From: an uncultured Bacillota bacterium
GTDB lineage: Bacteria > Bacillota_I > Bacilli_A > Culicoidibacterales > ZOR0006
Reading direction: 5' to 3'
DNA length: 43,334 nt
Assembly (NCBI GenBank): GCA_945956935.1
Contig: CAMFJD010000014.1
Span: 1 to 43,334, forward strand
This document shows, one piece after another, positions 1-43,334 of the stretch. A program made the position numbers and the translations under genes. The first letter of the stretch is position 1. Each line of letters opens with the position of its first letter. A model generated the notes under the pieces. That model saw only the letters and a program-made list of their open reading frames with translations. It made no database searches and had not been told where the DNA came from.

Positions 1-139
1 CATCATTTCTTTCATTGACCTTTTCAAATATTTCTCCCAACTTACGCTGTTCCCATGAAAGTACTTTATGAAAGCGAGTAAAATCTTTTGTATTAAGTAT
101 TAGCTGATTTACTAATATTGCTAATTTTACTTCGTAATA
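1..139 (-). pseudogene. hsdS: Type I restriction specificity subunit (hsdS) fragment, 5' end missing
   Basis: Reading the minus strand from 139 down to base 1 gives an open frame whose last part is SWEQRKLGEIFEKVNERND. The WEQRKLGEI stretch is the signature at the start of target-recognition domains in Gram-positive HsdS proteins, which choose the DNA site of type I restriction-modification enzymes. The frame is closed upstream by TAA at 140-142 and holds no ATG or GTG, so no proper start exists here. The residues before the motif do not resemble a normal HsdS N-terminus. The rest of the gene lies outside the window. It may be a silent hsdS cassette of a shuffling locus or a deletion remnant. 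The family call is fairly sure; its intactness cannot be judged. Confidence 0.6.
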
Positions 140-146
140 TTATAAT
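118..146 (+). promoter_or_regulatory. Promoter of the kinase-KAP operon
   Basis: TTGCTA (118-123), a 17-base spacer and a perfect TATAAT (141-146) form a sigma-A-type promoter about 70 bases before the kinase start. It overlaps the hsdS fragment on the other strand. The leader from 147 to 205 is almost pure A/T. Confidence 0.6.
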
Positions 147-218
147 TGGAATTATAAAAAATTATAAAAATATAAAAACAATACTAATCATATTAGTGCT
201 ATGATAGGAGTTGCAATA

Positions 219-1412
219 ATGAAACTGCTTAACTACATTGAATCACAAATGAGGGAGCTTGACTTAACAGTTGGCTATCAAAACGAATATAGTAACTTAT
301 ATGCGAACTTTGAAAATGTAAAATTACGAGCTATTTTCGCATATCTACACGAAGAATATGTACGGCTATTTGAAACATTGAATAAAAGGTTGCCAACGGG
401 AGAAGAATCGGCACATTTTTGGGCTGATGAAAGTCGAGAATTGATGAATATTATCAAAATCACTTTCGATATGCTAGAAAAATTGAAAAATACAGAATTT
501 GCTTTTGAAGTTGATTCGGAATACTTAATAATTATACAAATGTGTCAAAGATTTTTAGTGCAGTATAGGGGCAGTGAGATACCACCAAACACAAAAAGAG
601 TTGAGATTTATTACGAAATACCGATTTTCTTAAGTAATGAGACAATTAGTATAAGTCTAGGCGAAAAAACAAGAATTGAAAATTTAAAACTTATTGGGGA
701 AGGTTCATATGCAAAAGTTTTTAAATTCAAAGATTCATTTTATAACAAGACATATGCGTTGAAACGAGCTAAAAACAATCTTGACGATAAGGAAGTGCAG
801 CGATTTAGACGTGAATTTGAAGAAATGAAAAAATTAAGTTCACCATATATTTTGGAAGTTTATGCGTTTAATGAACAAAAGAGTGAATATACTATGGAGT
901 TTGTCGATTGTACTTTGGAGCAATACATGAATGAAAATAATTCAAAGCTTACTTATGACAATCGATTGAAAATAATTGCTCAATTACTACAAGGATTTCA
1001 TTATTTACATTCAAAAGATTTATTTCACCGCGATATTAGTTACAAGAATGTGCTAGTGAAACAATACGATGCAATTAATGTATTTAAAATTGCAGATTTT
1101 GGTCTAGTCAAAACGATTAATAGTGACTTAACTTCATTACAGACAGAAGTTAAGGGCTTTTTGAACGATCCGGCACTGATGATGCGAGGATTTAGTTCAT
1201 ATGACTTACTAGATGAAATTTATGCGCTTACGCAGTTGTTTGCGTACATTTTGAGCGGTAAGACACAGTGGGCAAATCTTAAAAGTGATCACATTGAAGA
1301 GTTTATGGAAAAAGGGATGAATCCAGATAGGAAAAAACGTTTTCAAAATCTTAAAGAAATGGAAACAGCTATCGTTACATGCGTGAATGAATTGAAAGCA
1401 GTACAAGAATAG
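219..1412 (+). CDS. Hanks-type serine/threonine protein kinase
   Basis: This is a cytosolic eukaryotic-like protein kinase of 397 residues. The kinase domain begins near residue 158 with the glycine-rich loop GEGSYAKVF. It continues with the ATP-binding lysine in ALKRA (about 181), the catalytic loop HRDISYKN (about 270) and DFG (about 293), so all core catalytic residues are present. The first 150 residues are helical and unrecognised. There is no membrane segment and no PASTA repeats, so it is not a PrkC-type wall sensor. The ATG at 219 is chosen because AGGAG (206-210) sits 8 bases before it; an in-frame ATG at 201 lacks such a site. It is the first gene of an operon with a helical protein and a KAP NTPase. 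Soluble kinases of this type occur in phage defence (for example Stk2 of staphylococci), but a defence role here is inference. Confidence 0.9.
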   Translation: MKLLNYIESQMRELDLTVGYQNEYSNLYANFENVKLRAIFAYLHEEYVRLFETLNKRLPTGEESAHFWADESRELMNIIKITFDMLEKLKNTEFAFEVDSEYLIIIQMCQRFLVQYRGSEIPPNTKRVEIYYEIPIFLSNETISISLGEKTRIENLKLIGEGSYAKVFKFKDSFYNKTYALKRAKNNLDDKEVQRFRREFEEMKKLSSPYILEVYAFNEQKSEYTMEFVDCTLEQYMNENNSKLTYDNRLKIIAQLLQGFHYLHSKDLFHRDISYKNVLVKQYDAINVFKIADFGLVKTINSDLTSLQTEVKGFLNDPALMMRGFSSYDLLDEIYALTQLFAYILSGKTQWANLKSDHIEEFMEKGMNPDRKKRFQNLKEMETAIVTCVNELKAVQE

Positions 1413-1424
1413 GGGGTATTTAAA

Positions 1425-1895
1425 GTGATAGTAGATGAGACAGTAGTGAAATTAGGAACAGATTTAGCAATGCTTGCAGTTAATGGTACTATACAGGCTG
1501 TAAATACAAAAAGAACAATGCTAAAATCAGAAAAATCGGCTGAAAAACTCCGTCAAGAATACGATGAAATTGTGAGTCAACTCATAAATGAGAGAGCAGA
1601 AGCAATTTTATTAGCACAAACGTATAAAGCAGAACTTGATCGTATCACAATTAGTGACGATGACATTACCCATTTGCACAATACATTGAAAATACTCGTA
1701 AATTTGATAGCAGCTGGGAATCAAGAACAATATGATAAATTTTTAGCACTTGTAAACAAGGACACGTTAAAAACAATGCAGTTACTTGGATTTAATTACA
1801 AAGCAGCAATCGGTGAGCCACTCACTGAAATTTGTGCCACAAAACTTAAAAAATGGGCTAATAGTGCAAATAAAAACCAAAAAGGGAAACGTTGA
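1425..1895 (+). CDS. Small helical protein of the kinase-KAP operon
   Basis: I do not recognise this 156-residue protein. It starts with GTG at 1425, preceded by AGGGGGT (1411-1417), directly after the kinase stop. Residues of about 25-80 are rich in Lys, Glu, Gln and Leu and look like a coiled coil. The rest is also mainly helical, with a basic tail ending KNQKGKR. There is no signal peptide or membrane segment. Its last codons overlap the start of the KAP NTPase gene, so the two are probably translated together. An adaptor between the kinase and the NTPase, or a substrate of the kinase, is possible but unproven. Confidence 0.75.
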   Translation: MIVDETVVKLGTDLAMLAVNGTIQAVNTKRTMLKSEKSAEKLRQEYDEIVSQLINERAEAILLAQTYKAELDRITISDDDITHLHNTLKILVNLIAAGNQEQYDKFLALVNKDTLKTMQLLGFNYKAAIGEPLTEICATKLKKWANSANKNQKGKR

Positions 1896-4429
1896 TAAAA
1901 ATGAACAAAAAAACTATACAACTAGCTTTATGGATATTATTAGGTTTAGCAATAATTGATATTTTAAATGTACCGAGTATAGTTATCAATCAAATACAAC
2001 TAAATTTTGAAGAAATTAGTCTTGTAGGACTAATAATTATAATTGGTGTTTTGTTGGGTATCAGTTATGTCCAGTGGTTTAAAACGATGCGGACAAAGAT
2101 TTTGGAAATGACTGATAAGTTCCCAATTGTATTGCTTTCAATAGTAATATTCTATGGGATAATTAATATAATGATTGGATATGAATTAATAGCATTCAAA
2201 TTTCAATTGTTATTTATGCTAGTCGTTATGTTGATGTGCACTATAGCTTTGTTGCAGATGCGCAAACAATTTCCAAATCCAGAAGTATCAGGGAATACTT
2301 TACAAACTGTATTTGACTTACATGATTTATATGATGGTAATAAATTTGTAAACTGGAATCCTGAGCAATTTATTCTTTTAAAAGAAACTACAGTTACGAA
2401 AGATTTGCTGAATAGGGAGCAGACAATAGTTCCGGAGCTGAAAAGAACGATTACCAATTGCTATTATCCAGAGGGAGGATTTGTAATAACTTTGACAGGA
2501 TCTTGGGGAAGTGGCAAAACAACGGTTATTAATATGGTTACTGACGAACTAAAAGAATTAACTCTTATCAATGATTTTTCGTTTTGGAAATATGAAAATA
2601 AAGAAGCATTACTTAAAGCAGTAATTGAACGATTGCTAGAAGAAAGTGATTCGGTACTCAACTTTCGTGAAAGACAAGCGTTTATTCAGTCTGTTCTAGA
2701 AATGGTGAGTGATAAAAGTGGCTTTAACTTCGTCCGTCTATTTGCAAATGGCGATGAGTTAAGCAGAGCAAAAAATAAGCTAAGTACACATTTAATTGAA
2801 AACAACAAACGAATTCTTTTTGTTGTTGATGATTTAGAACGGACAAATTCCGAGATTGCAATTATGATTTTCAAAGTGATTGCTACTGTGCTAGATATTG
2901 GAAATGTTATTTATTTGGTGAGCTATGATGAAGTGGAAATGAAAAAACATTTTTCAAATGTCGGCATTGAATTTAACTATCTAGATAAGGTTATCAATCA
3001 AAAATTTACGCTTCCTCAAATCTCTGAAGCAAATATTGCAGATGAGACGAAAAAAGCAATGTTAAGTTTAGCGCAAATTTATGGCCGCACAGATGAATTG
3101 AAAAATGTTATTGATGAGGTTGCGAAATTACTTCCAATTGAAAATATACGAGACCTCAAACGGATGCTAAATTCATTAATGCCCTATATACAAAAAAATG
3201 AGTTAGGTTTAAACGAACGCGATCGCCTGTTAATCAATTATATTAAGTTTAAAGATTATGGATTGTGGACAGAATTATTTGAAAATGGACACTATTTGGC
3301 AAGTTTTTATTATGTTGATTCAAGAAAATCGAAGCAAAGAGAAGAACATAATGTTTCCAAAGGTTTTAATCCAGATAAAGAAACTGATTTTGAACACAAT
3401 CGGACAGAATGGATTGAAAAAATACAAGCAGATTACAAGCAGTATCTCGATATACTGAAAAAATTATTTAATGATTTCAAAATGAAAGGAGATTATACGC
3501 AGAGTATTGAAAATGATCGCAATTTTAATATTTTGAATGGTAATTATTTTCTGATGTATTTCATTGAAGAAAGTAGTGACATACATCAAACGAAAAAAGC
3601 AATAAATCAATTTTTATCGCAAGAAAATATCGAAAAAGTTAAGATAACTGCTGAAGTTGAAAAACAAGCTGTAAAAGAATTATTCGAACAGAATGCCAAT
3701 CAACAGAACGCGATGTTTTTATACCTTCAAAGGCAGGAACAACATTTTGGTATTTTAAATGTAGTGATTTTACGCTATTTAATGGCGCCAGAAGGAGATA
3801 AGAACAAGGATGGCAATATTTTTCATAAGCTTGTTGAATATTGTGCACTAATTATCCTTCGATATTGTTTAGTAGAAAATTTTGAAAGTATTTTAGCTAA
3901 AGTTGATAGTGATTTTATAAATTTCTATTTCCATAAAAAGATAGTTGAAAAGTTAACGAGTGAAAGTTGGTGGAAGCAACATACAGCAGAAATCAAAGAA
4001 GACAAAAAAGAAATAATAAATCAGTATCATGAAATTGTTAAAAAACAGTTCTTAAAAGTTTGGGAACATGAAAGTATCACAGACGAAAATTTAAAAACAA
4101 TGATAGAAATTTATTTACATAACCCAGATTTTTATGGAGAGAAAACACAATCTGAGTGGCAAACATGGTTTCAGAATAAGGTAAAAACAAACAGTGTTGT
4201 ATTTTTACAACAGTTATATAACTATTCTTCTACCAGTGAAGGACCTGATTTTGATGAGTATGCTAAAGTTTTACAAGAATTAGGAATTTTGGAGCAGTTA
4301 AAACAACTAGATATTGATGCTTTGAAAAATAATTATTCATTTGAAAACACCACAGGAATTTCGGAGCTACTTGCAATAAAGAGATATCAAGATTTTATTA
4401 AACAACAAGAGAAAGGCCTCACTTCATGA
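1892..4429 (+). CDS. Membrane-anchored KAP-family P-loop NTPase
   Basis: This 845-residue protein has four hydrophobic segments near residues 8-25, 43-61, 78-97 and 101-121. A P-loop NTPase domain follows, with Walker A GSWGSGKTT near 204 and a Walker B strand ILFVVDDLER near 307. The DDLER form matches the DD-L-D/E-R signature of KAP NTPases. The C-terminal 400 residues are helical and charged without a recognised domain. KAP ATPases are membrane-associated STAND-like NTPases, and several occur in bacterial conflict systems. The start is TTG at 1892, overlapping the previous stop as TTGA and preceded by AAAGGG (1881-1886); an in-frame ATG at 1901 is the alternative. The gene ends with an ATGA overlap into the GIY-YIG gene. 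The hydrophobic block lies before the P-loop here, whereas in many KAP proteins it is inserted inside the NTPase domain. Confidence 0.85.
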   Translation: MIKMNKKTIQLALWILLGLAIIDILNVPSIVINQIQLNFEEISLVGLIIIIGVLLGISYVQWFKTMRTKILEMTDKFPIVLLSIVIFYGIINIMIGYELIAFKFQLLFMLVVMLMCTIALLQMRKQFPNPEVSGNTLQTVFDLHDLYDGNKFVNWNPEQFILLKETTVTKDLLNREQTIVPELKRTITNCYYPEGGFVITLTGSWGSGKTTVINMVTDELKELTLINDFSFWKYENKEALLKAVIERLLEESDSVLNFRERQAFIQSVLEMVSDKSGFNFVRLFANGDELSRAKNKLSTHLIENNKRILFVVDDLERTNSEIAIMIFKVIATVLDIGNVIYLVSYDEVEMKKHFSNVGIEFNYLDKVINQKFTLPQISEANIADETKKAMLSLAQIYGRTDELKNVIDEVAKLLPIENIRDLKRMLNSLMPYIQKNELGLNERDRLLINYIKFKDYGLWTELFENGHYLASFYYVDSRKSKQREEHNVSKGFNPDKETDFEHNRTEWIEKIQADYKQYLDILKKLFNDFKMKGDYTQSIENDRNFNILNGNYFLMYFIEESSDIHQTKKAINQFLSQENIEKVKITAEVEKQAVKELFEQNANQQNAMFLYLQRQEQHFGILNVVILRYLMAPEGDKNKDGNIFHKLVEYCALIILRYCLVENFESILAKVDSDFINFYFHKKIVEKLTSESWWKQHTAEIKEDKKEIINQYHEIVKKQFLKVWEHESITDENLKTMIEIYLHNPDFYGEKTQSEWQTWFQNKVKTNSVVFLQQLYNYSSTSEGPDFDEYAKVLQELGILEQLKQLDIDALKNNYSFENTTGISELLAIKRYQDFIKQQEKGLTS

Positions 4430-5307
4430 AAGTAAAAAACTTAAATTTATTTTTGATGGATGGAACAGCGACAGGACGAGTGAAATGTACGCTTGCCAAT
4501 TGGACGGGGGTCGTGTATAAAATTCCGCGCTTGCTCCTAGAACAATCGAGTCAACGTGATGATCTCAAATTCAGTGGTGTCTACTTTTTATTTGGCAACG
4601 ATGAACAAACAGGGAATCCGGTTGTCTATGTCGGGCAAGCAGGAAATCGAAAAAACGGTGAGGGGATTTACCAGCGTTTGCTTGAACATCGTAATAATGG
4701 TGACAAAGATTATTGGCAAGAAGCAGTTGTGGTGACTACGACAAATAATATTCTCGGACCAACGGAAATTAGTTATTTGGAAAATCGTTGTTGTTTACTA
4801 GCAACATCCGCAAATCGCTACGAAATCAAAAATGGTAATGAACCAAGTAGTGGGAATGTCACCGAAGAAAAGCAAGCTGAACTGGAAGAATTTATCGAAT
4901 ATGCCAAACTTGTTGTTGGCACACTTGGATATCCCGTCTTTGAACCGTTACGGAAGCCAACAGTTGCTGATGACGAGGTAGCAGCGCAAACGCCAGAAAT
5001 TCCAATTCTATATCTCAAACGCAAAAGTCGCAAGAGCAATCAAGTGATTAAAGCCCAGTGCCAACAAACATTGGAAGGTTTTGTTGTGCTAGCCGGAAGT
5101 CAAATTGAAGTGATCGATTCGGATAGTATTTCTGAGACGGTTCAAAAACGGCGGCAACAAGCGAAAATCAGCGCTGGAATCTTGCAAAAAGATGAACTCT
5201 TTAAAAGCCCATCATATGCTGCCGGTTTTGTCATTGGTGGATCAGTGAACGGATTAACTGTGTGGAAAACAGCGGATGGGAAAACGTTGAAAGAATTAGG
5301 CATTTGA
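4426..5307 (+). CDS. GIY-YIG nuclease family protein with C-terminal DUF4357
   Basis: This 293-residue protein has a GIY-YIG-like core near residues 48-125: the first strand is GVYFLFG, the second VYVGQAGN, then a helix with QRLLEH and a conserved Glu in the PTEISYLENR helix. The C-terminus, with SPSYAAGFVIGGSVNGL, is a DUF4357 domain. Such proteins are often found beside restriction systems and may cut or bind DNA. The start codon overlaps the KAP stop (ATGA, 4426-4429), which couples its translation to the KAP gene. Base composition is visibly richer in G and C than in the three genes before it, so it may have joined the operon separately. The motif is GVY/YVG rather than the textbook GIY/YIG, which is usual for this subfamily. 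Confidence 0.85.
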   Translation: MKVKNLNLFLMDGTATGRVKCTLANWTGVVYKIPRLLLEQSSQRDDLKFSGVYFLFGNDEQTGNPVVYVGQAGNRKNGEGIYQRLLEHRNNGDKDYWQEAVVVTTTNNILGPTEISYLENRCCLLATSANRYEIKNGNEPSSGNVTEEKQAELEEFIEYAKLVVGTLGYPVFEPLRKPTVADDEVAAQTPEIPILYLKRKSRKSNQVIKAQCQQTLEGFVVLAGSQIEVIDSDSISETVQKRRQQAKISAGILQKDELFKSPSYAAGFVIGGSVNGLTVWKTADGKTLKELGI

Positions 5308-5371: not shown

Positions 5372-5944
5372 ATGGCAATTAGGTATAAACAATGTCCGCA
5401 ATGTGGTTCGACTAAGGTACTTGATATTCTGTATGGAATGCCGACAATGGAAGCCTTTGAGCTGTATGAACGTGGGGAAATAAAGTTAGGCGGTTGTTGT
5501 GTTACGGATGCAGATCCACAATATTATTGTCGGGAATGTGAAAATGAATGGGATCGTGAAGTGGCGATTGAGCATGCTTATCGTGAAATTCGGGGAATCA
5601 AAGCGATAATCCACAATGATTTCCAGAGTGTTATTGAAATTACAATTGATTTTGAAACTGGGAATGCCAATTGGATCCATCATGGGTCTGATGAGAAGAG
5701 AGTAGGAGAGCAGCGATTAACACCAAAACAACAAGAAGTAATCCGCAAAGAGTTCAGACGCTTAAAGATGCTCAATTGGAAAGCAAAGTATGTTAATGCT
5801 GATCTCAGCGATGGTCCGCAATGGCAGCTAGAGATAATTAGAACTGGTCGAACACTCAAAAAACGGGGTGACAATGCTGGTCCAACACAATGGGCTGCGT
5901 TTTACAATGTTCTCACACAAGTATCAGGTAAGATGGTTGATTGA
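5372..5944 (+). CDS. Zinc-ribbon protein of unknown function
   Basis: This 190-residue protein begins with a likely zinc ribbon: Cys8 and Cys11 (CPQCGS) pair with Cys53 and Cys56 (YCREC). Between them is the well-conserved-looking stretch YGMPTMEAFELYERGEIKLG, and Cys42-Cys43. The second half (about 90-190) is a separate domain ending GPTQWAAFYNVLTQVSGKMV. The start has a ribosome binding site AAGGTGG at 5360-5366. It lies 64 bases after the GIY-YIG gene on the same strand with no terminator between, so it may be read from the same operon. Its G+C-richer composition matches the GIY-YIG gene rather than the kinase. No function can be assigned; nucleic-acid binding is a guess from the ribbon. 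Confidence 0.75.
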   Translation: MAIRYKQCPQCGSTKVLDILYGMPTMEAFELYERGEIKLGGCCVTDADPQYYCRECENEWDREVAIEHAYREIRGIKAIIHNDFQSVIEITIDFETGNANWIHHGSDEKRVGEQRLTPKQQEVIRKEFRRLKMLNWKAKYVNADLSDGPQWQLEIIRTGRTLKKRGDNAGPTQWAAFYNVLTQVSGKMVD

Positions 5945-6258: not shown

Positions 6259-6668
6259 TTATTCATTCAAATCATTCAATGATAAAAGTGCTATTATAAA
6301 TGATATTGCAAATATAGATATATCTGATGCAGATACACTCCCCATGAAATAATCAACCAAGGCCAGTGTAAACATTGTTGATAATGTGTCTAATGTAACA
6401 AATAGTATCTTTGCAAATTTTAGCGTAATTTTATCTAGCGATAACAATGCTTTCGGAAATGCTGAGGCAAAAATTTCTATTGGAAATCCTACTATGGTTA
6501 CTATAATGAAAAATATAATAATACTCTTTATGGAAGTATATTCGAAACCAAATAATTTCATTATCCCCCCCCCAATATGGCGATAACAGAAATAACTACT
6601 ATTAAAACGAAAGATACAAGTCCATAACCGATAATGGGTTCTATTATTTTTTTAAGTTTGTTTATCAT
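6259..6668 (-). pseudogene. YrvL-like membrane protein, frame split at a run of nine G
   Basis: Two minus-strand frames together make one small membrane protein. The first starts at ATG 6668, with AAAGGAG at 6678-6684, and encodes MINKLKKIIEPIIGYG plus a hydrophobic helix, stopping just after a tract of nine G (6565-6573). The second (6561-6259, 100 residues) continues with KLFGFEYTSIKSI and ends with LSLNDLNE. It contains PKALLSLDKIT and VDYFMGSVSASD, which resemble the YrvL family, small membrane regulators of about 135 residues. Adding one G (or removing two) restores a single frame of about 136 residues. As read, the stop and the second ATG overlap as TAATG, so reinitiation is also possible. 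Whether this is phase variation, decay or a base-calling error cannot be told here. Confidence 0.6.
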
Positions 6669-7147
6669 GTTATCCATCTCCTTTGGTAGATATCTTCTTG
6701 GTGTCTATTTCGGTAATTATTGAACCTATAAACAAAAAATAGCCATCCATACCAGCGAAGTTTGCGATGACTATTTTTGTTTATCTAACTTAGCCAACAT
6801 ATTGATGGGCTGTACGAGAACGGAGTGTTAGCGCACTGCGTTGTTTTCTATTTGAGTATAATATGATTACAAATGAATCGCAAGTGAAAAAGTATGTGGA
6901 AATCATCTTAGATCATGTGACGCAAATCATTTTCCTTTTGCTCGAATTATTTTAATCATAAAAACAGAAGCAGCATATAAATAGAGTATTCTTAACGAAT
7001 ATCTTGAAGTGAGTCGGCTTCGCTTGCTGCACTAGAAAGCTACCATTTTGCATAATTTCTTTGATTTTTTCTCGCAGTGACATATGCTTTTTACGAGTGA
7101 AAAGCATAAACTATAGGTGATTATTCAATCCAAAGGGAGTTGTTTAT
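6669..7147. other. Gene-poor stretch with decayed frames
   Basis: About 480 bases without a convincing gene. It holds the inverted repeat at 6730-6782. It also holds a short plus frame at 6863-6955 (30 residues, MITNESQVKKYVEII) and a minus frame at 7083-6952 (43 residues, MSLREKIKEIMQNGSFLV). Both look like starts of genes that have lost their bodies, and neither has a good ribosome binding site. The stretch probably marks old insertions and deletions between the YrvL-like gene and the helicase fragment. Confidence 0.4.
6730..6782. terminator. Inverted repeat, probable bidirectional terminator
   Basis: AAACAAAAAATAGCCATC (6730-6747) is nearly the reverse complement of GATGACTATTTTTGTTT (6766-6782). 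The hairpin has a T-rich exit on both strands. No intact gene is left that clearly uses it, which supports loss of genes here. Confidence 0.55.
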
Positions 7148-8494
7148 ATGAAACAAAAACTGGATTTTTTTAAAGACAAATTGAGTGATTTAAGTCGACG
7201 AAATCGTTCAATCCGCTTGATGAAACTTTATGATAAATACACTGTTGATATTTATGAATTAATAACGGCGGAAGCGAGTCCTACTCCGAACTTATTGGAA
7301 GCACTTCTTCAAGGGAAAACGAAGCAAATGCATATTGTTGCTCGTGACAGTCAAATAGAAGCTCAACAAATTCTGTCACAAAAGCTGACAACCTTATATC
7401 GTAATTTGAAGGCAATTGAAGAAGAAACTGGGATATATGATTTTTCTTTTGGTTATCCTTTTTTGACGGGAGCGATGCAAGATGGCACGTTCTTTCGTGG
7501 ACCAGTATTTCTTTTCCCGTTCCGACTCGAGAAGACAGCACGGTATTGGGTTTTAGAGCGAAGTGATGAGGAACCAATTGTGAATCGAACACTCCTGTTG
7601 GCATTGAAAAAGTTAAATCAATTTGCAATTGATGATAGTATGTTTGATGAAACGACACCAGTCGCGATTCAAAGTATTACAGATGCGCAACGTTGGTTTC
7701 AGCAATACGAGTATCATTTCCCTATTGCGAGCGAAACTTTGCAAAAATGTAAAAATTATACTTTGAAAAGTGTACCAGAGTTAGAAAAAGGGCATATTTT
7801 CTTAGATAACCTCGCCGTTTTAGGCTTATTTCCTCAAGGAAGTTCCGCCATTCAAAAAGACTATGATTTATTGAAGCTGAAATCTGATCAAAGTCAAAAT
7901 TTAGGCATGATTTCACAGCTGCTCTTTGATTTAGAAACAAACGAAGCCTATGATGCACTAACACCACCTGTAAAACTAGAGACACAAAATGAAATTCCTG
8001 AAGTAGAGCAATTATTCTTATTGCCAACGGATGGTTCGCAGGAACAAATTTTACAATTAGTGCGCTCAGAAGAGGGATTAGTTGTGCATGGTCCACCGGG
8101 AACCGGGAAATCACAAGTCATCGTCAATTTAATTACTGATGCCTTGAATCAAGATAAGCGGATCTTAGTTGTTTGTCAAAAGCGAGCCGCCCTCGATGTT
8201 GTGTACCAACGATTAGATAGTCTTGGGCTAGGTAGTATTACCAGTCTGATTCATGATGAAAAAAATGATCGCACCAAACTGTATCAGAAATTAAAAACGG
8301 GCCTTGAGGCTACTTGGCGTGAAGAAGAAGTGAGTTTACTTGAATATCAACGTGTCAGTGAAAAAGTCGCCAATTATGAAGCCAGACTTACCGCTATTGC
8401 CGAGGCGTTATATTTAAAAATGACAAAAAAAGTGCCAAATATGTCAACTAGCTTGTTCATGTCACTTAAATATAATAGAATTATTTTAAATTGA
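7148..8494 (+). pseudogene. Superfamily-1 helicase (DUF4011-like), truncated after Walker A
   Basis: The first 420 residues match the start of large DNA2/NAM7-type helicases found in accessory regions: KDKLSDLSRRNRSIRL at the N-terminus, a domain with YPFLTGAMQDGTFFRGP, then the P-loop HGPPGTGKSQVIV near 314 and motif Ia (LVVCQKRAALDVV). Family members normally exceed 1,000 residues. Here the protein ends at 448 and lacks motif II (Walker B) and every later helicase motif, so it cannot be a working helicase. The last 25 residues or so, after IAEALYL (around 8412), look like read-through into unrelated AT-rich DNA in front of the surface-protein gene. The start at 7148 has AAAGGGAG at 7132-7139. 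Confidence 0.75.
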
Positions 8495-8514: not shown

Positions 8515-11500
8515 ATGAATAAAAAAATTATTACCTTATTAGCATTAAGTATGGTTATTGCTGGAACACCAACATACCATGCACATGCAAACAGCAAGCA
8601 GCCAAATGACAACATCGAAACAATGGTAAATGATCAACAAACTGTTGGATCAACATATTTTTTATTCAAAAATATTTGGGGAGGTGAATCGTTACAGTTA
8701 GCATTTGACTTGCAAACGATGACGATTCAAGCAACGGCAAAATCAGGCAATTTTAGTAATGCTGATAATAACTTCACATTGCAACTTATCGATGCGACAA
8801 GTGCTACACAACTTATATCAGTACAAGCAAATACAAAATATGTGCGTGATTTTGTGACAAAGATACATAATCAATCTTTCAAATTAGGCGATATTGTGGC
8901 ATTAAATATTGATCCAACATCTGGGATGAGTAGTCCGAGCGTGTATGTAGATTCGGTGGCAACAGGTACGAATTGTGTTGGGAAAACGCAATATTTTACA
9001 ATTACAACGCAAGGGTTACAACCATATACACCGAATATTCAAGTAAATCCGATTAAAATTTTAGGTCAAGAATTGATTCATACAACGACAATCTCAGGAA
9101 CGACGTATCAAAATGCCGAAATTTCAGCAACTGTAGAAGGTCAAACGTTTACAACAGTTGCAGATGCATCAGGTGCTTTTCAACTTGAAATTCATTCAGA
9201 ACAAGGTTTTACAGCGAGAACAGCGATTCAACTTCATGTAAGTGAATTACAAATAACAGTGTATCCTGATTTATTAGCCCAACAAAATATGTATCAAGAA
9301 ACAAATACAGGCTATCAATATGTGTTAAATGCAGATTTACAAACACTCACAACACCATTTCCTAGTGAAATTATGTATGGAAGAAATTTATTGAGTGAGA
9401 GTGGTAAAAAAGCGTGGGATATCGCGTATGCCGCATTATTGAAATACGATAATACTGCCGATGCCTATCCGCGTGATTCAGCAGGAAATGTTGAATTTTA
9501 TGTTGATTATGAATCACATGGCATTCAAATTTCGGCGAATGAAGCCCAATATATTCAAAATTATTTAGTCAAAAATGAACCACGCATGTTTTTATTAAAA
9601 GATTGGAGTGCTAAACCAGTTTATAAAGATAATGTCATTATTGGTCAAAAGTTCTATATTGGAAATAGTGCTCAAAATGGCAATGATTATCAGCAACAAT
9701 TATTAGCAACAGAACAAGCGGTATCATTTATTTTAAGTAAGATTACGCCTGATATGGATATGTATCAAATCATTAAGACAATTCAAGTCGAATTTGAAGC
9801 ATTAGTTGACTATAAGAATGCTGGAACACCTGGAGATATTCGTGGAACATTCATTAATAATTATGCGATTTGTGGAGGGTATTCGAAAGGATTTGAATAT
9901 TTATTACAACGTGTAGGTATTGAAAACATTTGGGTAACTGGTCAAGCTGGTGGATACCATGCATGGAACAACATTAATTTGTATGGTGATTGGTATTTAG
10001 CGGATTCAACTTGGGGTGGTAAAAACTGGTATTTACGCGGAAGTAAAGGAACAGAGAATCATCAAGTACAAAATACATACTATATTATGCCAACGTTACA
10101 AGTTGAAAGTATTCCTTGGGAGTTAGGAGATATCGGGCAAACAATTGCGTATTTAACAGGTTCTGTTTCCTATGAAAATCAAAATGATGGCAAACTAGTT
10201 GTGACATATGAAGATCCTACCAAGCTAAATACGACAATGACTATTCGTACAAGTATCAATAATTATGAGCCAATGGAAATGACACGTGATGAAGCTGGAA
10301 ATTGGCGTGCTATTATTGAGTATGATGCGAATCATGAAGAAACCGTTGATTTTTTCTTTACTGTTGATGGAAAATTTCACACAATTGGTAATGTAAAAGC
10401 ACATGATCTTAGTGTTGAAAATGTTGGAAATGGTATGAAAAACATTGTTGTTGCAACAGCAAAAATTGATCGCTCAACATTACAAGAACTGATTGATGCG
10501 ACAGATTATGATGCAAGTGCGTATACACCGACAAGTTTTGCACAGTTTGCGGCAGCTCGTGAGCAAGCAAAAGCAGTTATTGCTGATGATAAAGCAACTG
10601 AATTAGCGTACTCACAAGCATATCGAGCATTACAGCAGGCAATTGACGGATTGATTAAAGCGAATACAATTGAATTCAAAGGATATAACAATGTTGTATT
10701 CTTGACATTAGAATTTGATACTATCACAAAACAATTTAAAGCTGTTTCAAATGGAGAAATGGTCCATCCTTATCAATATGCCCGTGTGTATGCAAAAGTA
10801 GATCACTATGATCAAAAAGGGAATTTAAAAGGTAGCTATCAAGCAATTGCGAATCAAACTGCGGATGAGATGGCAGCAGGATTGAATGGTGCGACGTATG
10901 AGTCAGGGGACTATTTACAATTGAGTCATTTAGAAAAAAATAATCGCCTCGTTATTCAAGGGTATGTGAATAATGCACCATATGATTTAAGTACTGGATC
11001 AACAGCATTAGATTTAGCAACAGCACGTTTCTATCTTGATGGTGAAAGCTTAAGTTATAGCGATACCGCATTAGATTTATCAGCTGATAAATCAGCATTA
11101 CGAACAAAAATCGCTGAGCTTGAGCAAATCAGTGGAGAAGAATATACACAAACAAGTTTTGCAAGTTTGCAACAAGAGCTTCAGTCAGCACGGGCACTCA
11201 TCGAGCAAACAAGTGTCTTTGCAAGTGAATTAGATGAAGCAATTACACGCCTAGATAGTGCACACGCTGATTTAAAACGTATCAATACAATTATTTTTAA
11301 GGGATATAACAATAATGAATTTTTGACGGTTCGCTTTAATAGTGAGACACAGCAATTACAGGCTATGTCAAATGGACAAGTTGCTAATCCTTATTCGAAT
11401 GGAACGTATGCAAGTATCAAACATTTTGACAAACAAGGGAATGTGAAAGCAACGTACAATGTGTCAGCCAACCAAAATGCCGATGCTATTGCGGCTCAAC

Positions 11501-14169
11501 TTGATGGAACTCACTATGAAACAGGTGATTACTTACAGTTGACACATAAAGAGCAAACAGGACGGCTTGTTATTCGTGGATATGTGGCTGATGCACCAAG
11601 TGACTTTAGTAATGGGGTCCAAACACTGGATTTAACAACAGCACGTTTCTATCTCGATGGTGAAAGTTTCAAATTCAGTACTGAAGCACTGGACTATACA
11701 GCTGATACGACGGAGTTGCAAACATTAGTAGCTCAAGCAAATACTTTAACTGCAAGTGATTATACAGCAACAACATATGCTAATGTTATTGAAGCACGTG
11801 ATAAAGCACAAACAGTTATTGAGACGTTCAATGTGACAGATGCAGTTGTTCAAGCAGCGACTGAAACATTGCAACAAGCGATTGGTAGATTACGTTTGAT
11901 CAATGAAATTCAAATCAAAGGGTATAATAACGAAATTGCTCTACGTGTGCAGTTTAATCCAACGACACAAACATTGCACGCTGTTTCTAATGGGCAAGTT
12001 GTGCACCGTTTCCATAGTGGAACGTATGCGAGTATGAAGCATTATGATCAACAAGGAAACGTAAAAGCAATCTATAATGTGATGGCGAATCAAACTGCGG
12101 ATGAAGTAGCGGCTCAAATTGAAGGAAGTATGTATGTAACGGGTGATTATTTCCAATTCACGCATAAAGAACAAGCCAATCGTTTGGCTATTACTGGCTT
12201 TATGAGCGATGCACCCGCTGACTTTACTCAAGGTGTGAAAACACTTGATTTAACGACAGCACGCTTCTATCTTGATGGTGAAAGCTTTAAATTCAGTACT
12301 GAGGCACTAGACTATACAGCTGATACGACGGTCTTACAAACATTAGTAGCTCAAGCAAATACTCTAACTGCAAGCGACTATACGGCAACAACATATGCCA
12401 ACGTTATTGAAGCACGTGATGCAGCGCAGGTAGTTATTGAGACGTTTAATGTGACAGATGCAGTTGTTCAAGCAGCAACTGAGACATTGCAACAAGCGAT
12501 TGATAGCTTACGTTTGATCAATGAAATTCAAATCAAAGGATATAATAACGAAATTGCTTTACGTGTGCAGTTTAATCCAACGACACAAACATTGCATGCT
12601 GTTTCTAATGGGCAAGTTGTGCACCGTTTCCATAGTGGAACGTACGCGAGTATAAAACATTATGATCAACAAGGAAATGTGAAAGCAATCTATAACGTGA
12701 TAGCGAACCAAACAGCGGACGAAGTAGCAGCCCAAATTGAAGGAAGTACGTATGCAAGAGGTGATTATTTCCAATTCACGCATAAAGAGCAAACGAATCG
12801 TTTGGCTATTACTGGCTTTATGAGTGATGCACCCGCTGACTTTACTCATGGTGTTCAAACACTTGATTTGACAACAGCACGCTTCTATCTTGATGGTGAA
12901 AGTTTCAAATTTAGTACTGAAGGTGTTGATTATACAGCCGATACAACCGGGCTACAAACATTAGTAGCTCAAGCAAATGCTTTAAATGCAAGTGACTATA
13001 CGGCAACAACATATGCCAACGTTATTGAAGCACGTGATGCAGCGCAGGTAGTTATTGAGACGTTTAATGTGACAGAAGCAGAAGTTCAAGTAGCAACTGA
13101 TACGCTTCAACAAGCAATGGATACGTTAATTCGTGTAAATACGGTTGAATTGAAAGGCTATAATAATGTTGTCTTTTTAACACTTACGTTTGATCCGACA
13201 ACACAAACACTGCATGCTGCTTCAAATGGAGAGATGGTTCATCCATACCAGTATGCACGTGTCTATGCAACAGTTGAACATTATGATCAACAAGGAAAGC
13301 TCAAAGGAAGTTATGAAGCAATTGCGAATCAAACTGCTGATGAAATGGCTGCAGGATTAAACAATTTAGTATACGAGACAGGGGATTATTTACAGTTCAA
13401 TCATTTAGAAAAAAATAACCGTCTAGTCATTAATGGGTACGTAAATAATGCACCATATGATTTAAGTACAGGTGCGTATGATTTAGATTTAACAACAGCA
13501 CGCTTCTATCTTGATGGTGAAAGTTTCAAATTTAGCAGTGAGGCCCTTGATTATACGGCGGATACAACTGAGTTACAAGCATTAGTAACAACGGTTGATA
13601 CGTTAGTTTCAAGCGATTATACGGCAACAACATATGCTAATGTTATTGAAGCACGTGATAAAGCACAAACAGTTATTGAGACGTTTAATGTGACAGAAAC
13701 AGTTGTTCAAGCAGCAACTGAGACACTTCAACAAGCGATTGATAGCTTACGTTTGGTCAATGAAATTCAAATCAAAGGATACAATAACGAAATTGCTTTA
13801 CGTGTGCACTTCGATCCAACAACACAAACATTACATGCTGTTTCTAATGGGCAAGTTGTGCACCGTTTCCATAGTGGAACATATGCAAGTATGAAGCATT
13901 ATGATCAGCAGGGGAATGTGAAAGCGACGTATAACGTGATAGCGACTCAAAATGCGGATGCTGTAGCTGCTCAAATTGATGGAAGTACATATGAAAGTGG
14001 CGATTATCTACAATTTACGCACAAAGAACAAACAAATCGTTTGGCGATTACAGGATATATTACTGATGCTCCAAATGATTACAGTTATGGCGTTCAAGAT
14101 CTCGACTTAACAACATCATACTTTTACTTTGATGGAGAAAGCTTTAAATTGAGCAATCAATTACAATAA
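8515..14169 (+). CDS. Large secreted repeat protein: transglutaminase-like domain, spacer domains and six mucin/sugar-binding-like modules
   Basis: The 1,884-residue product has a signal peptide ending near AHA (26). Residues 40-160 form a first beta-rich domain and about 175-255 an Ig-like domain. A transglutaminase-like (papain-fold) domain follows with Cys453 (AICGGYS), His482 (GYHAWNN) and Asp497 (LADSTWGG) in the expected catalytic order. From about 660 to the end run six units of about 206 residues. Each has a 70-residue helical FIVAR-like spacer (DYTATTYANVIEARD) and a 135-residue module starting KGYNN, similar to the putative mucin/carbohydrate-binding module of enhancin-type proteins. 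KGYNN occurs near residues 722, 929, 1135, 1341, 1547 and 1754. There is no LPXTG signal or C-terminal membrane anchor, so it is released or held by binding. It has its own ribosome binding site AAAGGAG and starts 20 bases after the broken helicase. Its role is probably adhesion to host or wall glycans, with a possible cross-linking or peptidase activity. Confidence 0.85.
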   Translation: MNKKIITLLALSMVIAGTPTYHAHANSKQPNDNIETMVNDQQTVGSTYFLFKNIWGGESLQLAFDLQTMTIQATAKSGNFSNADNNFTLQLIDATSATQLISVQANTKYVRDFVTKIHNQSFKLGDIVALNIDPTSGMSSPSVYVDSVATGTNCVGKTQYFTITTQGLQPYTPNIQVNPIKILGQELIHTTTISGTTYQNAEISATVEGQTFTTVADASGAFQLEIHSEQGFTARTAIQLHVSELQITVYPDLLAQQNMYQETNTGYQYVLNADLQTLTTPFPSEIMYGRNLLSESGKKAWDIAYAALLKYDNTADAYPRDSAGNVEFYVDYESHGIQISANEAQYIQNYLVKNEPRMFLLKDWSAKPVYKDNVIIGQKFYIGNSAQNGNDYQQQLLATEQAVSFILSKITPDMDMYQIIKTIQVEFEALVDYKNAGTPGDIRGTFINNYAICGGYSKGFEYLLQRVGIENIWVTGQAGGYHAWNNINLYGDWYLADSTWGGKNWYLRGSKGTENHQVQNTYYIMPTLQVESIPWELGDIGQTIAYLTGSVSYENQNDGKLVVTYEDPTKLNTTMTIRTSINNYEPMEMTRDEAGNWRAIIEYDANHEETVDFFFTVDGKFHTIGNVKAHDLSVENVGNGMKNIVVATAKIDRSTLQELIDATDYDASAYTPTSFAQFAAAREQAKAVIADDKATELAYSQAYRALQQAIDGLIKANTIEFKGYNNVVFLTLEFDTITKQFKAVSNGEMVHPYQYARVYAKVDHYDQKGNLKGSYQAIANQTADEMAAGLNGATYESGDYLQLSHLEKNNRLVIQGYVNNAPYDLSTGSTALDLATARFYLDGESLSYSDTALDLSADKSALRTKIAELEQISGEEYTQTSFASLQQELQSARALIEQTSVFASELDEAITRLDSAHADLKRINTIIFKGYNNNEFLTVRFNSETQQLQAMSNGQVANPYSNGTYASIKHFDKQGNVKATYNVSANQNADAIAAQLDGTHYETGDYLQLTHKEQTGRLVIRGYVADAPSDFSNGVQTLDLTTARFYLDGESFKFSTEALDYTADTTELQTLVAQANTLTASDYTATTYANVIEARDKAQTVIETFNVTDAVVQAATETLQQAIGRLRLINEIQIKGYNNEIALRVQFNPTTQTLHAVSNGQVVHRFHSGTYASMKHYDQQGNVKAIYNVMANQTADEVAAQIEGSMYVTGDYFQFTHKEQANRLAITGFMSDAPADFTQGVKTLDLTTARFYLDGESFKFSTEALDYTADTTVLQTLVAQANTLTASDYTATTYANVIEARDAAQVVIETFNVTDAVVQAATETLQQAIDSLRLINEIQIKGYNNEIALRVQFNPTTQTLHAVSNGQVVHRFHSGTYASIKHYDQQGNVKAIYNVIANQTADEVAAQIEGSTYARGDYFQFTHKEQTNRLAITGFMSDAPADFTHGVQTLDLTTARFYLDGESFKFSTEGVDYTADTTGLQTLVAQANALNASDYTATTYANVIEARDAAQVVIETFNVTEAEVQVATDTLQQAMDTLIRVNTVELKGYNNVVFLTLTFDPTTQTLHAASNGEMVHPYQYARVYATVEHYDQQGKLKGSYEAIANQTADEMAAGLNNLVYETGDYLQFNHLEKNNRLVINGYVNNAPYDLSTGAYDLDLTTARFYLDGESFKFSSEALDYTADTTELQALVTTVDTLVSSDYTATTYANVIEARDKAQTVIETFNVTETVVQAATETLQQAIDSLRLVNEIQIKGYNNEIALRVHFDPTTQTLHAVSNGQVVHRFHSGTYASMKHYDQQGNVKATYNVIATQNADAVAAQIDGSTYESGDYLQFTHKEQTNRLAITGYITDAPNDYSYGVQDLDLTTSYFYFDGESFKLSNQLQ
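10675..14160 (+). repeat. Six tandem ~620-bp coding repeats
   Basis: Repeats of 618-621 bp inside the surface-protein gene begin near 10678, 11298, 11919, 12537, 13155 and 13776. By sequence they fall into three types. Units 1 and 5 share NGEMVHPYQYARVYA; units 3, 4 and 6 share NGQVVHRFHSGTYAS; unit 2 is intermediate. Units 3 and 4 are nearly identical at DNA level, which indicates recent duplication. Such repeats can change number by recombination. Confidence 0.9.
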
Positions 14170-14216: not shown

Positions 14217-14591
14217 GATAATTCTATGTACCTGTGAAAAAATAGTTGTGCAGATGTAAAACAAGCACCGAATGGACGAGCGAAAATGCGTCAATGCTTA
14301 GATGAATATGTTACGGTCGTGCTGGATTTGTATGATGTAACTACGTGAGCGGGTTTTGTGGATAGCTTCTATGACGGTATGGGTAGTTTGGGAACAGTTA
14401 AATGAAATATTGACTAGGCAAATATTGCTATATTCATTTTGGAATGAATTACATAATATTTGCCTAGTCAGTTTTAGGATGGAAAACAATCAACACATAT
14501 TGAAATTGTAATAGACTTTAAATGTCGAAATTGATTAAAACGGTTACCTACTGTTTTTTATTGACATTTCTTGATGGGAAGCGACTTTTTT
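14217..14591. other. Non-coding stretch with a gene remnant and a long inverted repeat
   Basis: A plus frame at 14238-14348 (36 codons, no start) reads as a plausible protein piece (RAKMRQCLDEYVTVVLDLYD), then stops. The inverted repeat at 14411-14470 follows. The rest is AT-rich and holds no gene that I can support. The piece is not recognisable and may be debris from the gene(s) replaced by the surface-protein gene. Confidence 0.35.
14411..14470. repeat. 60-base nested inverted repeat
   Basis: TGACTAGGCAAATATT (14411-14426) is the exact reverse complement of 14455-14470, a 16-bp perfect stem. Inside the loop a second stem, ATTCATT/AATGAAT (14432-14438 and 14443-14449), surrounds TTGG. No long T-run follows, so it is not a typical terminator. 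It could be a structured RNA, a small mobile-element end or a weak bidirectional terminator. Confidence 0.6.
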
Positions 14592-43193: not shown

Positions 43194-43334
43194 TTGTTCT
43201 CCTAAAGTTGTTGCTTCAAGTGATTGGGTTGTCAAAACGTCATATGAATCGAATTTATATGTATAACATAAAATAATAAAACCTAAATTGGAATAACAAA
43301 TTGCACTATTTTCCAATACCATTTATTTGATTGA

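Follow-up and report, generated by a model that had tools for sequence, protein, structure and literature searches.

Four tightly packed genes in a defence island of an uncultured Culicoidibacterales bacterium are probably a stack of separate modules

We analysed a run of four genes at the left end of contig CAMFJD010000014.1 (here C14; assembly GCA_945956935.1) from an uncultured Bacillota bacterium of the order Culicoidibacterales; the window is this entire contig, at 43,334 nucleotides. The genes encode a Hanks-type protein kinase, a small helical protein, a membrane KAP-family NTPase and a GIY-YIG nuclease, and a sequence-only reading had proposed that they form one defence system, with a signal relayed from the kinase through the helical protein to the NTPase and the nuclease as effector. 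Comparison with relatives of each gene points elsewhere: the four genes are probably a co-directional stack of separate defence modules and not one four-part machine, because each gene family travels on its own among its relatives. They share a direction and perhaps one transcript, without necessarily having a common mechanism. The features of the run are as follows:

118 to 146, plus strand: promoter-like site TTGCTA-17-TATAAT (consensus scan only)
201 to 1412, plus strand: soluble Hanks-type protein kinase (Pfam Pkinase, 5.5e-31; catalytic residues; AlphaFold2 (AF2) fold)
1425 to 1895, plus strand: 156-aa helical protein of an unnamed family (loci of relatives, alignment, AF2)
1892 to 4429, plus strand: membrane KAP-family P-loop NTPase (Pfam PF07693, 1.8e-30; PADLOC PifA, 1.7e-22; hydropathy)
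4426 to 5307, plus strand: GIY-YIG nuclease with DUF4357, PADLOC PDC-S14 (PDC-S14, 9.9e-103; DUF4357, 3.3e-14; catalytic residues)

The four consecutive open reading frames (ORFs) lie on the plus strand with spacings of 12, -4 and -4 bp, and ORFs, spacings and family matches all agree with the tight order first described. A single promoter and two overlaps had also been claimed, with mixed outcome: the ATGA overlap of the KAP and nuclease genes (-4 bp) holds, the promoter is no more than a fit to the consensus, in a region that contains 46 such sites where 31.4 are expected, and the TTGA overlap is uncertain because the KAP gene has two candidate starts, TTG 1892 and ATG 1901. For the kinase, the more likely start is ATG 219, behind an AGGAG; ATG 201 lies 5' of that motif.

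Relatives of each gene were collected separately, giving match loci from elsewhere for the helical protein (102), the kinase (25), the KAP NTPase (13) and the nuclease (24). Outside the window, none of these loci contained two of the four families, a count that is strong, not exhaustive, with loci that are partly overlapping or duplicate and some that have short flanks; the host order comprised four genomes in total. The gene order was therefore unique to this genome in everything sampled, an outcome that the sequence-only reading had itself named as refuting and that speaks against a single four-part system, and literature searches returned no paper describing this four-gene set.

The proposed relay ending in the nuclease is further weakened by a sister species of the same genus. 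Its contig C57 carries a decayed nuclease gene with 88% identity to the window; the match begins at position 4414, 12 nt 5' of the start codon, and the start of this gene is overlapped, in the same manner as in the window, by an unrelated gene of 255 aa. That gene sits behind a type III-like restriction–modification (RM) locus (helicase, DUF4391, methyltransferase and Res), and a second nuclease copy in the sister species comes after hsdR. In the window, G+C rises from 30.2% in the KAP gene to 41.8% in the nuclease gene exactly at the homology break (core genes, 34.1 +/- 2.3). Because a different upstream gene overlaps the nuclease in the sister species and because of the G+C step, the KAP–nuclease overlap is poor evidence for a dedicated partnership. 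Judged from these alignments, the nuclease gene behaves as a portable 3' tail that brings its own ribosome-binding site.

The nuclease itself matches PDC-S14, a PADLOC guilt-by-embedding candidate, at full length (residues 2–291 against profile positions 15–294 of 301), and its catalytic residues (G51/Y53, Y68/G70, R84, E119 and N138) are invariant in five homologues. Its relatives are solitary or within RM loci, and we suggest that the GIY-YIG/DUF4357 protein would act as a restriction-like nuclease against invading DNA. PDC-S14 is a single-gene candidate with no link to kinases or KAP NTPases; an overlap with the restriction-like system GAO_29 has been reported for it (PMC10855318). SNIPE offers a precedent for a GIY-YIG nuclease acting at the membrane during injection (PMC13190303), and the genes here would act alike if the membrane KAP protein placed the nuclease at phage entry sites. 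However, SNIPE combines DUF4041 and a membrane anchor of its own in a single protein (PMC13190303), while this nuclease is not tied to KAP in relatives; membership was rejected, as Pfam gives DUF4357 and no DUF4041.

The kinase appears to be active, as had been suggested: the Pfam match spans residues 160–371, and the catalytic set, all present, is invariant across 15 aligned sequences (K188, HRD 276–278 with D278, N283, and DFG 299–301 with D299). The AF2 model (pLDDT 84) has kinases as its top PDB folds, S. aureus PknB included. Ahead of the catalytic domain, some 150 residues form a mostly helical N-terminal domain. Relatives with this same domain (37–46% identical) are single genes in prophages and on plasmids of Sarcina, Campylobacter, Priestia, Geobacillus and Lactococcus; GenBank phage records contained no relative of the N-terminal domain. 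At one further locus (L293, 1070–7998), a 265-aa protein corresponds to the N-terminal part only and adjoins genes for an Eco57I-type methyltransferase (1053 aa) and a large helicase-like protein, so the N-terminal domain may be separable from the kinase. The family is often carried by Campylobacter conjugative plasmids (62 plasmid records in all), and the Campylobacter copy that we read (L015, 5959–6969) encodes a shortened kinase with an altered C-terminus. A connection of the kinase to the other three products could not be demonstrated.

Among known systems, the kinase shares an active Ser/Thr kinase fold with Stk2, PD-T4-6 and KKP, and its relatives, too, are lone genes or prophage cargo. 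The PADLOC matches to Stk2 (5.7e-33) and PD-T4-6 (9.5e-30) are nevertheless confined to kinase-domain residues 155–400, with a distinct N-terminal domain, and membership of either was ruled out as there is no full-length match. The functions of Stk2 and PifA, with which the kinase and the KAP NTPase are compared, are general knowledge. The kinase would be a self-contained abortive-infection kinase whose N-terminal domain senses infection, leading to phosphorylation of host or phage proteins in the manner of Stk2 or the KKP kinases (PMC11341870). KKP has a partner kinase or phosphatase (PMC11341870), whereas the kinase here has neither.

The KAP NTPase has intact Walker A (GSWGSGKTT) and Walker B (VVDDLER) motifs and, by hydropathy, four hydrophobic segments ahead of residue 125. 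It has the same NTPase domain and membrane segments as PifA and other KAP P-loop NTPases, but the PADLOC PifA match covers part of the protein only (residues 282–603), and on this partial domain match PifA membership was considered but not adopted. Full-length relatives are few, 22–25% identical and uncharacterised; they are solitary or lie directly 3' of hsdS (gap of 6 bp in Lactobacillus intestinalis), and none was found in GenBank phage records. As a PifA-like membrane ATPase, the protein would damage or seal the membrane upon infection.

The helical protein had no match above curated cut-offs in Pfam or NCBIfam, none in PHROGs and only a weak one in PADLOC, and GenBank phage records contained no relative. 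Its AF2 model is all helix and of moderate quality (pLDDT 72, pTM 0.40), and a fold search with this model gave no significant relative in PDB or BFVD. A profile match to the IpaB coiled coil (2.9e-6) was set aside as coiled-coil resemblance only, since the fold search did not support the match. Both a C-terminal motif, DTLKTMQLLGFNYKxAIGxPLT, and a genomic link to RM genes characterise the family, and the core residues of QLLGFNYKxAIGxPLT are invariant in 61 aligned sequences.

The 102 loci place relatives of the helical protein within hsdM-hsdS-[helical]-hsdR loci, 4–6 bp downstream of type ISP enzymes, and beside FokI, D12 and other methyltransferases, RloB with an AAA gene, DUF4435-AAA, YhcG, AbiGi and Fic. 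Of the 475 genes within three positions, 24 have methyltransferase motifs, compared with 6 of the 576 that are more than five positions away (Fisher p ~1e-4, the loci being partly related). In a tree of 78 members, partner classes require 11 changes (the minimum is 5), and the window copy falls in a supported clade alongside type I, RloB and other methyltransferase partners. Some copies adjoin housekeeping genes (for example, GMP synthase and glutamine synthetase), so the helical protein also travels alone. By its gene neighbourhoods, this is an unnamed family that changes partners among type I, type ISP, FokI, other methyltransferase, RloB/AAA and Fic genes and also occurs in prophages. In prophages of Bacillus/Paenibacillus type (L207–L218), relatives come shortly before the HNH endonuclease and terminase genes.

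We suggest that the helical protein would be a non-enzymatic accessory, binding partners or DNA and common to many RM and defence enzymes. A more specific and quite tentative idea is that it serves all these partners, here the kinase/KAP operon, as a general partner-swapping accessory with one common function, for instance keeping phage inhibitors off the enzyme or stepping in as a back-up for a blocked partner; this would also take in the prophage copies beside packaging genes.

The surroundings of the operon contain three further features of relevance:

1 to 118, minus strand: headless hsdS' piece of a type I specificity gene that continues beyond the left end of the contig (frame reads ...FHKVLSWEQRKLGEIFEKVNERND)
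5372 to 5944, plus strand: 190-aa zinc-ribbon-like protein (G+C 41.5%, versus 41.8% for the nuclease)
7148 to 8494, plus strand: truncated DUF4011/AAA helicase, a ProA/Hhe-type anti-phage remnant (NF058533, 5.4e-42; PDC-S37, 1.5e-39)

The hsdS piece reported next door is indeed present: window positions 1–55 on the minus strand (WEQRKLGEIFEKVNERND) are an hsdS segment, and bases 2–55 recur without a mismatch as the first 54 bases of contig C21. The C21 counterpart of WEQRKLGEIFEKVNERND is the beginning of an hsdS gene with a complete start (MEKIKKCPKLRFPEFSETWEQRKL), located behind DUF3644, hsdM and hsdR. In the sister species, the gene beside C21 position 14313 and the 877-aa gene at window position 14582 are just 1.3 kb apart, so C21, reversed, would join the left end of the window, with the operon inside an inserted island. 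From synteny and the shared repeat, we infer both this join and an invertible hsdS/hsdS' pair.

The island would span about 29 kb (up to about 14.3 kb contributed by C21 and 14.6 kb by the window, plus the gap) and is absent from the same site in the sister species. It contains hsdR, hsdM, DUF3644 (PDC-S19), hsdS/hsdS', an AbiLi-like ATPase with a 241-aa partner, the four genes, the zinc-ribbon gene and the truncated DUF4011 helicase. The zinc-ribbon gene is 3' of the nuclease in both species, and C57 of the sister species keeps its 3' end behind the decayed nuclease. These neighbours support placing the operon in a defence island with a putatively phase-variable type I RM locus (hsdR-hsdM-DUF3644-hsdS/hsdS'). 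The association with defence genes anticipated in the sequence-only reading is borne out by the island, with its RM locus, AbiLi-like ATPase, DUF4011 remnant and PDC-S14 nuclease, and by the relatives, which place the helical, KAP and nuclease genes in RM operons and the kinase as lone plasmid or prophage cargo. The defence setting is thus strengthened by island context, with phage defence itself putative. The parts are also loosely like those of MADS (methyltransferase, kinase and ATPase), and the best PADLOC match of the kinase is mad6 (5e-37, kinase domain only). However, hsdM fits a type I methyltransferase (4.5e-171) far better than mad2 (8e-57), and the AAA gene fits AbiLi better than mad3. 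MADS was rejected, as these are paralogous kinase, methyltransferase and ATPase matches and not the mad1–mad8 set.

Several points weigh against a stack of separate modules. The kinase, helical and KAP genes are tightly packed and alike in G+C (30–34%) and could be a real, rare unit; a scan of an 84,980-genome collection gave loci for the helical protein only and none for KAP, sampling being finite; and a phage phenotype is known for none of the four proteins. Common G+C and tight spacing make this trio the main open alternative, namely a true three-gene defence system in which the kinase senses infection and, by way of the helical adaptor, activates the membrane NTPase, the nuclease having been added later. 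The 12-bp gap, the possible 4-bp overlap, the low G+C of all three genes and a sister-species homology break exactly between KAP and nuclease fit such a system, but we consider it unlikely: no other sampled locus has two of the three, the helical protein elsewhere flanks RM or other defence genes and the kinase elsewhere stands alone. To extend the system to all four genes, the kinase relaying a signal, KAP sitting at the membrane and the nuclease being the effector, seems highly improbable. Gene order, overlaps and the apparent activity of all enzymes would favour it, against which stand the unrelated gene overlapping the sister nuclease, the G+C step at the KAP–nuclease junction and the lack of a second example among the sampled loci.

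The four genes might instead be accessories of the adjacent type I RM system that, for example, modulate restriction or kill the cell when restriction is blocked. The operon does adjoin hsdS' in an island of hsdR-hsdM-DUF3644-hsdS, and other genomes have the helical gene between hsdS and hsdR, KAP right after hsdS and the nuclease right after hsdR. Yet each gene also occurs without type I RM genes, the kinase was not seen with them elsewhere, and here an inverted hsdS cassette separates the RM genes from an operon with its own predicted promoter, leaving an accessory role very doubtful. That the genes are cargo for signalling or DNA repair with no role in defence is barely credible: the missing phenotypes are compatible with it, but island position, RM neighbours, the PDC-S14 identity and the prophage and plasmid carriage of relatives all point the other way.

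Read as a stack of separate modules, the four-gene arrangement is ordinary in kind. Tight gene order and start–stop overlaps are the usual sign of a dedicated system but can arise when a portable gene plugs in at its ribosome-binding site, which is a caution for defence-system mining. The analysis also brought to light an unnamed small helical family beside many different restriction and defence enzymes, which merits follow-up by itself.

Other observations concern the island and its genome. The 448-aa ORF of the helicase remnant covers positions 396–778 of 1903 in the NF058533 profile and ends abruptly; full DUF4011 helicases (ProA, Hhe) have about 1900 aa. Between the nuclease block and this remnant (6272–6892), short stretches are 76–89% identical to sister contigs C2, C11, C40 and C57 and appear to be dispersed repeats or mobile-element remnants. 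Downstream, window positions 8515–14169 encode an 1884-aa surface protein (transglutaminase-like, FIVAR and six mucin/carbohydrate-binding repeats) that lies in the island and is absent from the sister site. On C21 (L036, 7645–9700), the gene for the AbiLi-like AAA ATPase overlaps the 241-aa gene, and the two may be a new AbiL-type pair within this island. A second hsdM of the genome, 42% identical to the first, is found on contig C48 (L311, 4.9 kb), where it adjoins hsdS-like and transposase-like genes.

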